DNA from: Ianthella basta
Taxonomy: Eukaryota > Porifera > Demospongiae > Verongiida > Ianthellidae
NCBI GenBank assembly: GCA_964019415.1
Contig: OZ025875.1
Span: 124,001 to 188,000, forward strand
Reading direction: 5' to 3'
DNA length: 64,000 nt
The notes beneath the pieces were generated by a model. That model had not been told where the DNA came from and did no database searches. It was given only the letters and a program-made list of their open reading frames with translations. The translations under genes were made by a program, and so were the position numbers. Within the stretch, counting starts at the first letter, position 1; the number at the start of each line of letters is the position of its first letter. Below are positions 27,063-55,902 of this stretch, piece after piece.

Positions 27063-30000
27063 CTAAGAGCTGCACATGACACAGGCTTCACGGTTCTGCA
27101 GTGAGCAGGCCATGGCTGCCGCCGCGTCCTCTTTCTTCTGCTGTGCCTCACTGAGAACAGACTGGTCCACTGTGAACTGGATGGCATTGGCCGCTGGACG
27201 TGTCCTCAAGTAGTACATTCCAGTCTTCAGGCCCTACAGAACAAGACAACACAGCTAAACACAAACACACCCACACCCACACAAACACAAACACCCCACA
27301 CCCCACACACACACACACACACACACACACACACACACACACACACACACACACACACACACACACACACACACACACACACACACACACACACCTTGTT
27401 CCAGGCATAAAAGTGCATGCTTGTGAGCTTGCCAAAGTTCGGTTCTGCAATGTACATGTTCAGGGACTGGCTCTGGTCAATAAACGCCCCCCTGTCGGCA
27501 GCCATGTTGATCAACACCTTCTGCGATATCTCCCACACTGTCTTGTAAAGTTTCTTTATGTGGGTTGGAATCTCATCGATACTCTGCACGGAGCCACCGT
27601 GAGCAATGAGCTTATGCTTCATGGCCTCGTTCCACAGCCCCAGCTCAGTCAGGTCCTTCATGAGGTGCTGGTTCACCACCTGCAGCACCAGCCAACACAG
27701 CACCACCTCACCCCAACACACCCCTCACTACACACAAACCTATCACTTCTCCCTCACCTGAAACTCTCCTGACAGCACACGACGGCTGTAGATGTTGCTA
27801 GTGTAGGGTTCAAAGGACTCGTTATTCCCAAGGATTTGTGCAGTGGAGGCAGTTGGCATGGGTGCCAAGAGCAGGCTGTTTCGCACTCCAAACCTAACAG
27901 TGGGAGAAGTCCATTACACTAAACAAACACAAGGTCTGGACAACAGTCAACACACACCTGGCGATCCTTGTCTTGAGGCCCGCCCAGTCCCATCGCTGTG
28001 AGGGGGTAACCCCCCACATGTCGAACTGGAGCACACCTTTGCTCACAGGACTGCCTGCATAGGTCTCATAGGGACTGTCCCTCTCGGCCAATTCACAGGA
28101 GGCTGTCAGTGCACCAAAGTAGATTGTTTCAAAGACCTGCCGATTGAGTGCCTGTGCCTCCTCACTCTCAAAGGGATAGCGCATCAAAATGAACATGTCA
28201 GCCAGACCCTACGCAAAACACAAGCAATCATAGCACCTGCTCCCACATGTCACTCCACCACCACTTCCAGATACTCCCACATGTCCCTCCACCACCACTC
28301 CCAGATACTCCCACATGTCCCTCCACCACCACTCCCAGATACTCCCACATGTCCCTCCACCACCACTCCCAGATACTCCCACATGTCCCTCCACCACCAC
28401 TCCCAGAAACCCCACCCACTGCCCGCTGGTGTACCTGGACACCAATGCCAATGGGCCTGTGCCTGAAGTTGGACGCCTGGGCCTCCGGGATCGGGTAACA
28501 GTTGAGGTCAATGATCCTATTCAGGTTACGTGTCACCACCTTGGTCACCTCAAACAGACGCTGGAAGTCAAAGGTCTGGTCTGCACCCACAAACATGGGC
28601 AGGGCAATGGATGCCAGATTGCACACAGCAACCTGCAAGGGCAGTTGTAGGTGGTGCCATGGACTGCCTCACTCACAGCACACACACACACACACACACA
28701 CACACACACACACACACACACAGCAGCACACCTCCTCAGTGCTTGTGTACTCCAATATCTCAGTACAGAGGTTGCTGGACTTGATGGTGCCGAGGTTCTG
28801 CTGGTTGCTCTTGCGATTGCAGGCATCCTTGTAGAGCATGTACGGAGTGCCCGTCTCAGTCTGTGCCTCCAGGATGGCAAACCACAGCTTTTGTGCCCTC
28901 ACTGTGCGGCGAGCACGTCCTTCTCGCTCATACCTACTCATGCAACATTAGGAGAAACTACTAATACATACACCCACCCACACACCCACCCACACACACA
29001 CCCACACACACACACAAGTACACAAACTGCCTCACTTCTCATATAGCTGCTCAAACTCCTCCCCCCACACTTCGTGCAGCCCAGGGCACTCATGGGGACA
29101 CATCAAAGACCAATCCTTGTCTGCCTCCACACGCTTCATGAACAGGTCCGGGATCCACAGCCCATAGAACAGGTCCCGTGCACGCTGCCGACAAGCAAGA
29201 TGACTAAGATACTCAACAACATACGTACTCAACTCAATAGCTCCAGCTGCCTATCAAAGATACACATACGCATGCATACACACACACACACACACACACA
29301 CACCACACACACACGCACGCGCGCACACGCACACACCTGCTCCTCCTTTCCTGTGTTCTTGCGAAGGTCCAAGAAGTCAAACACGTCAGCGTGCCACGGC
29401 TCCAGGTACACAGCAAACGCACCAGGGCGCTTGTTCCCGCCTTGGTCCACGTAGCGGGCAGTGTTGTTGAATACCCGCAGCATTGGAACAAGGCCATTGG
29501 AGGTACCATTTGTCTGGGGCAAGAGGAGTGAGCACACTCACACACCAACCAGCTGGTTCCCTGAGTGCGACTCACCCCAGCGATGTAGCTGCCCCGGGCA
29601 CGGATGCAGTGCACAGCTACACCAATGCCTCCTGCAGACTTGGAGATGCAGGCGCACTGCTTCAGAGTGTCGTAGATGCCCTGTGTGAGCAGGTTCGGGT
29701 TAGGGTGTCAAGGAACAGTTCTGTGAGTGGGGTGAGGTGCTGGGACTCACATCAATACTATCCTCCTTCATGGCTAGCAGGAAACATGACGAGAGCTGAG
29801 GGCGGCATGTCCCAGCATTGAAGAGTGTCGGTGATGCGTGTGTGAACCACTTCTCAGAGAGAAGGGTGTAGGTCTCCAGCACAGCGTCTAAGTCCTCCTT
29901 GTGAACGCCAATGGCCACGCGCATCAGCATGTGCTGCGGCCGCTCGGCAACTGAAGGAATGACGGCAGAAGACAAGGCCATGCAATGTAATGTTGGCCAT

Positions 30001-30840
30001 GTTACGTACTAGTGTGTCCTCAGTGTGCGGGGTACCTTTCCCATTGATCTTGAGGAGGTAGGAGCGCTCCAAGGTCTGAGGGAGAGAGGCATACACAAAT
30101 GACCAACTGTGTGCTGAGGTGCCGGTGCGACAGTGGAGCGTCACCTTGAAGCCAAAGTAGCTGTAGCAATAGTCTCTGTCATAGATGATGGCCGAGTTGA
30201 AGGTCTGCACATACAAGCACAACACACAACACATGCACAAGTGAACACGACTGAACCAGAACAGCAAACACAGCCAGTACACACATCGGCATGTCTTTGT
30301 ACAATGTCCATCGTCTCCTTGCTGATCATGGGAGAGGAAAGCCCGTTCTTTGGGTTCTGGTAGTGGAACAAGTCAGACATCACAGCTGTTGGGAAGGGGG
30401 GGGGGGGGGGGGGGACAGACCATGAAGAGTGGTTTTACCGTAGCTACACTTTAGACCAGCACGTGCTAGCTAACCGGAGAACTGCTTCTTTGTTTCCTTG
30501 TGTAGGTTGGACACAGCTATCCGAGCGGCGAGGGTGGCGTAGTCGGGATGACGAGTGGTCATTGAAGCGGATGTCTCAGCGGCGAGCGTGTCCAGCTCCA
30601 CAGTGGTGATGCCGGGGTAGACTCCGGAGATTACCTTCATGGTTATCTCGGCTGGGTCTATGAACTCCTGGTTGAGGCCGTAGCAGAGCTTGCTGATGCG
30701 TGAGGTGATCTTGTCAAACAGCACTGGCTCCTGCCGACCATCTGCAGAAGGGGGAGAACAGAGAAATCAGAACGACTTTCACAACCTAGCAGCGACAGGT
30801 GCTGCGTACCTCTCTTGATGACATAGATTCTTGAGCTCAT
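27063..30840 (-). CDS. RRM1: Ribonucleoside-diphosphate reductase large subunit
   Basis: Catalytic alpha subunit of class Ia ribonucleotide reductase, which reduces NDPs to dNDPs with the small subunit RRM2 in the cytosol. The start is ATG at 30840 (MSSRIYVIKR), then exon 2 with DGRQEPVLFDKITSRISKL. An N-terminal ATP-cone region is followed by the first redox cysteine (QLSSCFLLAMKED), the active-site trio in NLCTEILEY near 28760 (Asn, Cys, Glu), and a C-terminal MACSLQNREACVMCSS with the CxxC shuttle pair, stop at 27063. Coverage looks complete for a protein of about 790 residues. Introns are short; three have GT-repeat arrays starting at the donor. It is head-to-head with OFD1. Confidence 0.97.
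27300..27394. repeat. (CA)n microsatellite beginning at an RRM1 donor site
   Basis: The sense (-) strand reads AAG|GTGTGTGT..., the splice donor being the first dinucleotide of the run. The exon ends at 27395 (AWNK) and the next exon continues in frame with GLKTGMYYLR. Confidence 0.95.
28250..28425. repeat. 34-bp minisatellite in an RRM1 intron
   Basis: Between four and five copies of a 34-bp unit containing ccaccaccactcccagatac and tcccacatgtccct. Units are nearly identical, indicating recent expansion. It lies between coding exons that join in frame. Confidence 0.92.
28678..28731. repeat. (CA)n microsatellite at an RRM1 donor site
   Basis: The sense strand reads GAGGAG|GTGTGC followed by a GT run. 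The exon (TSTEE) ends at 28732 and the next encodes VAVCNLAS. Confidence 0.9.
29272..29336. repeat. CA/CG-rich microsatellite at an RRM1 donor site
   Basis: The sense strand reads GAGCAG|GTGTGTGCG followed by GT, GCGT and GT repeats. The exon (GKEEQ) ends at 29337. A further CA-rich run occupies 28965-29022. Confidence 0.9.
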
Positions 30841-54812: not shown

Positions 54813-55902
54813 ATGGGTCACACCACTGGATACCGTAGAGGAACCCGGTACCTTTTTTCACGTCCTTTTCGGAGGCACGGCCCCGAACATTTGTCCACTT
54901 ACCTAAAAATTTACAAAAGAGGGGACATCCTAGATGTTAAGGTGTGTGTGTGTGTGTGTGTGTGTGTGTGTGTGTGTGTGTGTGTGTGTGTGTGTGTGTG
55001 TGTGTGTGTGTGTGTGTGTGTGTGTGTGTGTGTGTGTGTGTGTGTGTGTGTGTGTGTGTGTGTGTGTGTGTGTGTGTGTGTGTGTGTGTGTGTGTGTGTG
55101 TGTGTGTGTGTGTGTGTGTGTGTGTGTGTGTGTGTGTGTGTCGCGCGCGCGCGCATTTGGAAGTCCTGCCAACATGTACTAATATTTGTCACCTGTACTT
55201 TAAGTTTCACTTGGTAGCTTACACGTTCTCCTGTGCTTCCTGTCGTGTACTGCTTTCTGTTGACTGTGAGTGTTACAAAAGAATGTGTTATGCCGTGTGT
55301 GCAGATGAACGGTTCAGTGCAGAAGGGCATGGCCCATAAATTTTATCATGGCAAAACGGGTCGTGTTTTCAATGTCACAAAGCACGCTGTAGGGGTTGTT
55401 ATGAACAAGAAGATCAGGTGAGGCTTACCCACACGGCAGGCAGTGAGTAACTGGCAGTCACTGGACGTGATGCCATTTGTGGTGATGTTCATGTGTTATA
55501 GGTGGTGATGATGACAGGTTGTCACGGTGACATGACAGGCTGTCAGTGTTGTGACAAATGTGTGTGCCTTGGCTGCTGCAGGAACCGTACTCTCAAGAAA
55601 CATCTGTATGTGCGGGTGGAGCACGTGCAGCACAGCAAGTGCCGGGATGAGTTCCTTCAGCGTGTGAAGAAGAATGAGGCACTGAGGAAGAGAGCTAAGG
55701 AAACGGGAGAGAGAGTCAGCTTGAAGAGAGAGGTGGGTGTGGTCACATGACCTGGTGTGATGTCACATGACCTGCATGTGATGTCACAACTGGTGTCCTT
55801 GTTCGTCTATAGCCTACACAGCCAAGACGCGGCCATTTTGTGAAGTCGAAAGGCATGATTCCAGAACTGATAGAGCCTATCCCATATGAATTTGTGGCGT
55901 AA
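54813..55902 (+). CDS. RPL21: 60S ribosomal protein L21 (eL21)
   Basis: Structural protein of the large cytosolic ribosomal subunit. Exon 1 (54813-54941) encodes MGHTTGYRRGTRYLFSRPF through DILDVK. Exon 2 starts at 55305 (MNGSVQKGMAHKFYHGKTGR). Exon 3 starts at 55582 (NRTLKKHLYVRVEHVQHSKC), and the last exon gives PTQPRRGHFVKSKGMIPELI ending IPYEFVA, stop at 55900-55902. About 160 residues, the usual length, with all phases consistent. Intron 1 begins directly with a 200-bp GT repeat whose first GT is the splice donor. Divergent from IFT172. Confidence 0.97.
54942..55140 (+). repeat. (GT)n microsatellite of about 100 units at the RPL21 donor site
   Basis: Pure GT from the first intron base to 55140, then a short CG run (cgcgcgcgcgc). 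The exon ends AAG at 54941. It makes up over half of the 363-bp intron. Alternating GT then CG sequence is prone to Z-DNA. Confidence 0.97.

Follow-up and report, generated by a model that had tools for sequence, protein, structure and literature searches.

The window analysed here is a stretch of 64,000 nucleotides from Ianthella basta (contig C8, positions 124001–188000, in a genome of 209 Mb assembled in 96 contigs), and this report concerns the tandem-repeat arrays that start at the 5' splice sites (donors) of its introns. Eight genes contributed introns to the analysis: RRM1, the 31 kb gene, the 36 kb gene, a fusion gene, IFT172, RPL21, an NDK-like gene and a putative eIF2B-like gene. Tandem repeats occupied 33% of the window bases at a GC content of 0.52; the corresponding values in ten sampled blocks without masked bases were 3–14% and 0.41–0.48. 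An ab initio gene model was trained on the window and on 14 other blocks of 20 kb, after which the window genes were corrected by hand; the gene models of the blocks are unvalidated. Arrays were called with Tandem Repeats Finder (TRF) at a score of at least 50, unless a threshold of 75 is stated. The window set consisted of 95 hand-corrected introns, one further intron having been dropped because its ends were not GT/GC..AG. A clean-frame subset of 77 introns from six genes was obtained by leaving out the 31 kb gene and the eIF2B-like gene, which kept stop codons under the boundaries used. The median intron length was 81 nt in the window and 244 nt in the blocks.

Translations of RRM1, the 36 kb gene, the fusion gene, RPL21 and the NDK-like gene were free of stop codons, while IFT172 gave a 1735-amino-acid frame without interruption across 40 exons, the C-terminal part of which matched IFT172 in the Protein Data Bank. 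The spliced RPL21 protein was a full-length L21e. The spliced RRM1 protein could be aligned without gaps to the solved ribonucleotide reductase large subunit (5d1y) across both introns that carry an array from +1 (donors at 27394 and 29336), and the IFT172 junction at 45952 aligned without gaps to the IFT172 structure 8bd7. Three verified introns, with junctions aligned to solved structures, therefore carry arrays from their first base, and TRF confirmed head-to-tail copies of a short unit, as expected of microsatellites and minisatellites. The 5d1y alignment also exposed an array-free RRM1 intron of 69 nt (30076–30144), open in frame, which the gene model had taken as coding. The gene model likewise called the 12-mer array of the fusion gene, which is open in frame, and one 21-mer array as exon; thus, such arrays would be overlooked if annotation were left to software. 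The arrays at or near donors in the window were as follows.

27234..27394, minus strand: RRM1 intron; (GT)n from +1 with 45 perfect units (array 27259–27394), ending 25 nt before the acceptor; junction aligned to 5d1y.
29185..29336, minus strand: RRM1 intron; GT array from +1 with frequent interruptions (array 29278–29336); junction aligned gap-free.
40735..41258, plus strand: fusion-gene intron; 12-mer GTGGGTGGGCCT x39.8, running from +1 to 46 nt before the acceptor; based on the open spliced frame, not on alignment across the junction.
45739..45952, minus strand: IFT172 intron; 21-mer x8.2 from +1; junction aligned to 8bd7.
47926..48141, minus strand: IFT172 intron; 13-bp duplication GTGAGGGGGGGGG, two copies, from +1; based on the frame only.
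49196..49494, minus strand: IFT172 intron; 21-mer GTATGTAGTGGGTGGGGCTGG x12.3 from +1, the TRF call reaching 6 bases into the exon, whose end is similar; based on the frame only.
50231..50344, minus strand: IFT172 intron; 25-bp duplication, two copies, copying the donor (AAG|GTGGGC twice); based on the frame only.
51357..51447, minus strand: IFT172 intron; 12-mer GTGAGGGAAGGG x5.2 from +1; based on the frame only.
52154..52303, minus strand: IFT172 intron; imperfect GT array from +1 (GTGGGTGTGTG...); based on the frame only.
54942..55304, plus strand: RPL21 intron; perfect (GT)100 from +1; based on the full-length L21e spliced protein.
56225..56290, minus strand: intron of the presumed eIF2B-like gene; 22-bp duplication, two copies, from +1; the gene model kept one stop codon.
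28633..28731, minus strand: RRM1 intron; GTGTGCTGC followed by (TG)n, the (TG)26 starting at about +10, near the donor and not at +1.

A sequence-only reading of this DNA had counted eight arrays at +1 by gene, without coordinates, and its counts were matched to arrays in the present analysis. Seven of them start at +1 as claimed (RRM1 27394 and 29336, fusion gene 40735, IFT172 45952, 49494 and 52303, RPL21 54942), while the eighth, RRM1 28731, starts at about +10. The array at IFT172 52303 reaches +1 only if GTGGGT is tolerated at the array edge, the perfect GT run beginning at +5. The unit lengths of 2, 12 and 21 bp given in the sequence-only reading were borne out by TRF, and four further donor-starting arrays could be added (IFT172 51447, 48141 and 50344, and eIF2B-like 56290). 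A TRF boundary artefact was considered and rejected: TRF overran 1–8 bases into exons at some sites, but in the sequences read directly the unit started at +1. Other window arrays lay off the donor, namely a 34-mer at +20, 28971–29016 at +20, 31878 at +5, 53230 at +15 and 55742 at +10, together with the acceptor-side set described below.

The placement of the arrays was compared with chance, as the sequence-only reading had suggested, and the distances from donors were not flat. Among the 95 window introns, 11 of 30 arrays started at +1/+2 or overlapped the donor, compared to 1.13 expected from random within-intron placement (p=5e-5). When the last 25 nt of each intron were barred to arrays, the expectation rose to 5.07, which was still exceeded by the 11 observed (p=3e-4). 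At a TRF score of at least 75, 9/23 window arrays were at the donor (expected 0.91, or 3.88 with the 3' reserve, p=0.001). The clean-frame genes gave 10/26 against 0.96 (p=5e-5), or against 3.89 with the reserve (p=1.5e-4). An excess could also be observed at predicted donors in the 14 other blocks, where 4 of 76 arrays were found versus 1.47 expected (p=0.013; with reserve 1.59, p=0.023), and 3 of 52 versus 0.37 at a score of at least 75 (p=0.005). Donor-anchored arrays are thus confirmed as real, and they extend beyond the window.

The units began with the donor itself and formed a graded copy series, in which two-copy duplications of 13, 22 and 25 bp stood beside arrays of 5, 8, 12 and 40 copies. 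Local duplications recurring at the donor would produce such a series. Together with the uneven distances and the genome-wide recurrence described below, the series agrees with the proposal of the sequence-only reading that arrays grow recurrently from short GT-rich donor seeds. Eight of the 11 donor-starting arrays stopped 23–66 nt before the acceptor (seven of them at 23–46 nt). The arrays at RRM1 29336, IFT172 48141 and RPL21 54942 stopped 93–190 nt short of it, so that stopping at the branch region is a tendency and not a rule. The four donor-anchored minisatellites with at least five copies (40735, 45952, 49494 and 51447) had units of 12, 21, 21 and 12 bp, each a multiple of 3, and three of these arrays are open in the upstream exon frame, a weak lead that was noticed post hoc with n=4 and has a counter-case in a 16-mer x5.4 at a predicted donor in a block.

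Array composition differed between the two intron ends and was the most informative clue. All 11 donor-starting window arrays were G/GT-rich in the sense strand. G/GT-rich arrays started within +3 in 11/19 cases in the window and 4/32 in the blocks (expected 1.13 and 0.24; 15/51 in total, with about 1.4 expected), compared to 2/55 for all other classes (Fisher p=3e-4). No C/CT array started at a donor; arrays of this class ended at most 13 nt from the acceptor in 4/4 window and 6/7 block cases (expected 0.69 and 0.39; 10/11 in total, with about 1.1 expected). One window example is the following, and similar arrays were found at 51165–51244, 48554–48618 and 52868–52910.

51891..52033, minus strand: IFT172 acceptor-side (TCCCC)n array, ending 2 nt before the acceptor.

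The array-free introns showed corresponding gradients of G and C runs. GGG occurred at 43.9 per kb after the donor and 14.3 in the middle of window introns (blocks, 15.6 vs 7.3), and CCC at 71.5 per kb before the acceptor and 14.3 in the middle (blocks, 34.6 vs 7.3).

Several long repeats in the window lay outside this set. The fusion gene (39124–44247) carries two Pfam domains, class-V aminotransferase and PP-loop ATPase, which are separated by a coding minisatellite with a 30-bp unit in about 25 copies. Long minisatellites with 27-bp and 30-bp units were located at 34598–35149 and 36341–37604, within predicted exons of two adjoining genes. Alternating satellite blocks of the 10-bp type CAAGATGAGG and the 21-bp type CAAGATGCACTGGACCCCCTA lay at window positions 4–14790, at least 124 kb from the contig start.

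A genome-wide count of GT runs behind exon-like ends extended the pattern. The string (GT)9 after A/CAG (MAG) occurred 1451 times, compared to 126 for the mirror string; the MAG share of such runs was 5.7%, and that of the mirror 0.4%. CAG(GT)9 alone was found 690 times (mirror 63), the first 100 listed places being spread over contigs C1 to C3. GT runs of nine or more units numbered 25,357 in one phase. All three MAG(GT)9+ sites within the window and blocks were at predicted donors. As a side observation, MAC(GT)9 occurred 895 times and its mirror (TG)9CAM 2025 times, an asymmetry in the flanks of GT arrays opposite in direction to that of MAG. The sense orientation of GT versus CA arrays in introns was 9:0 in the window and 31:18 in the blocks; the GT sense bias is therefore largely a window feature.

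A coding-like frame (score at least 3) ran into the array at 27 of 37 MAG sites, sampled in even steps or by hand among the matches listed on C1–C3, compared to 2 of 15 control GT arrays with other flanks, hand-picked from one strand at the start of C1. At a score of at least 5 the counts were 14/37 and 2/15. The first 25 sites against the 15 controls gave 20 and 2, 14 and 2, 7 and 2, and 7 and 1 at scores 3, 4, 5 and 8, respectively (Mann-Whitney p=4e-5). Some of these exon ends putatively belong to SRP receptor, NIT2 and a USP25/28-like gene. Eleven of the 37 sampled sites (11 of 15 sampled on C2) belonged to one multicopy gene family on contig C2 (loci L041, L042 and L045–L053), with coding scores of 2.8–4.8. 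The exon-end motif of this family had 39 exact matches, all of them on one strand and mostly on C2, with diverged copies falling outside the count. All 11 sampled copies carry a GT array at the donor, a feature for which they were chosen. Across eight sampled paralogs, seven of them with near-identical exon ends, the GT run varied from 16 to at least 48 units; the arrays are therefore inherited and unstable. A single repeated element as the source of the genome-wide count was rejected, since the 37 sites still represented 26 contexts (60% identity over 60 bp), 18 of them with a coding score of at least 3. The donor-anchored class probably numbers hundreds of introns, as extrapolated from samples on three contigs.

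The donor hexamer was further assessed as a seed. GTGTGT donors, expanded ones included, made up 17 of 247 predicted block donors and 12 of 123 window donors, compared to 5.1% predicted from base frequencies alone. GT runs of three or more units had grown to nine or more in 5/29 cases at donors and in 56/415 elsewhere (p=0.58), a test with low power on 29 donor seeds, which a moderate difference could escape. At that low power, donors seem to be over-represented by being seeds, and the cause is probably not donor-specific. The density of GTGT in array-free introns was 18.3, 21.0 and 26.0 per kb at the start, middle and end in the window, and 9.3, 9.0 and 9.0 in the blocks. The gradient thus involves only runs of G and of C, which leaves the donor hexamer as the sole seed for GT arrays.

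Given the observed position, class specificity and genome-wide excess of the arrays, we consider it likely that ordinary tandem-repeat growth is permanently seeded by the splice signals. Selection keeps GT at every donor, and the 5–10% of donors that read GTGTGT, like others reading GTGGGT or GTGAGGG, already hold two to three repeat units. Slippage, or duplication of the first 12–25 intron bases, would lengthen the seed downstream and would leave splicing unharmed, because the exon AG and the first copy still make a donor. In short introns, growth could proceed until the branch point and the pyrimidine tract are reached, and pyrimidine tracts could likewise seed C/T arrays at the 3' side of the intron. 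Because the seed would be restored by selection, donors could not lose it for good. The mutational route (slippage or duplication), a nearly neutral effect on splicing and the renewal of the seed are inferred.

Several points weigh against this reading. The composition classes and the 13-nt acceptor limit were fixed after the data had been seen. Because the gene model behind the block acceptors favours pyrimidines, the 4/4 C/CT arrays of the window are the cleaner acceptor evidence. Arrays of mixed composition were also near the acceptor in the window (4/5, 1.46 expected), while none of 20 were in the blocks. Genome-wide, (CT)8NCAG at acceptors showed no excess (5, mirror 5), such strings being rare anywhere. 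Gene-model errors may account for two of the five expanded donor seeds, namely two of the three in the blocks, which are preceded by TTG or ATG. The GTGT density given above has no donor gradient. (GTRA)n behind MAG was found nowhere in the genome (mirror 1), although GTGAGT and GTAAGT are together the commonest donors (56/247 in the blocks); a seed is therefore insufficient, and the motif must be one that this genome amplifies. Finally, among runs with five or more units genome-wide, the fraction reaching 15 units was 0.45 for MAG runs and 0.29 for other runs. Inherited paralogs, or interrupted arrays fragmented elsewhere, could account for the longer MAG runs, as could a real donor effect, and no weight is placed on this difference either way.

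Such a donor effect could arise if the G-rich sense DNA past the donor formed RNA-DNA hybrids or suffered breaks linked to transcription, so that expansion rose above that of equal seeds elsewhere. The uniformly G/GT-rich sense strand of the 11 donor-starting window arrays and the somewhat longer MAG-type runs are in line with mutagenesis of this kind, but seeds grew about equally often at donors and elsewhere (at low power), pyrimidine arrays crowd acceptors comparably, and GT arrays abound throughout the genome. A process special to donors (RNA-DNA hybrids or break repair), which the sequence-only reading had named among its possibilities, is so far unsupported, and we regard it as unlikely. 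Simple geometry was judged a little less likely still: arrays might arise anywhere, and short introns would leave them only the stretch from donor to branch point. The short window introns, the 7/11 donor arrays ending 23–46 nt before the acceptor and the rise in expectation from 1.13 to 5.07 under the 3' reserve all fit such a constraint. It would nevertheless leave the 11 observed arrays in excess, as it would the weaker excess in blocks with longer introns (4 vs 1.59), and it is chiefly G/GT arrays that are affected (15/51 vs 2/55 for other classes). Slippage, moreover, adds units and does not delete the bases separating an internal array from the donor.

Retention by selection, in which GU- or G-rich arrays past the donor serve as intronic enhancers or G-quadruplexes (G4) without being seeded more often, appears improbable. 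Array-free introns are indeed rich in G runs past the donor, and PMC9065059 reports that human G4 motifs concentrate on the non-template strand just downstream of 5' splice sites, above all in short introns. Array length nevertheless spreads widely among near-identical paralogs, and a similar yield per seed needs no added retention. The birth of introns by insertion or tandem duplication of repeat-bearing, AGGT-containing sequence is hardly credible. The 25-bp duplication at IFT172 50344 does copy AAG|GTGGGC and the end of the 49494 21-mer resembles the exon end, but the other donor-anchored units, read by eye, are unlike the exon end, and units are unrelated among arrays. Growth from splice signals acting as seeds remains the preferred reading.

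In the proto-microsatellite model, short pre-existing repeats nucleate arrays through slippage. The seed considered here differs in being a splice signal that is maintained by selection at every intron and hence renewed. A TG/T array adjoining a splice site is known from the (TG)m(T)n tract of CFTR intron 8, which adjoins the acceptor, whereas the arrays described here adjoin the donor. Short tandem repeats (STRs) and G4 motifs are enriched at human exon-intron junctions, with G4 past the donor on the non-template strand and strongest in short introns, and the authors regard the STR enrichment as expected because a subset overlaps polypyrimidine tracts (PMC9065059). Repeats and G-rich motifs thus gather at splice junctions in both systems; the difference here is that whole arrays start exactly at +1, in units of 2 to 25 bp that open with the donor. 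A preprint on splice-affecting STRs near exons in human cortex describes repeats near splice sites, T-rich ones within 100 bp upstream of exons (PMC13174678). That study concerns effects on splicing, while the present case concerns array start points, mainly at donors. A literature search, thin on subscription papers, found no description of arrays starting at donor +1 as a recurrent class. Repeat enrichment at splice junctions is already known, and arrays starting exactly at donor +1 as a class are a new variant of it.

For gene finders, these arrays are a warning that in-frame-open donor arrays can be called as exon. They also offer numerous matched sites with a known seed at which the birth of microsatellites can be tested. 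A simple rule for repeat birth within genes may follow, in which conserved low-complexity signals under selection act as repeat nurseries, and recurrent intron-length variation would be predicted at donors and acceptors. More tentatively, both splice signals might be standing nucleation sites genome-wide, with donors breeding G/T arrays that outgrow equal runs elsewhere, pyrimidine tracts breeding C/T arrays, and selection re-seeding both, so that introns would steadily grow and vary in length.

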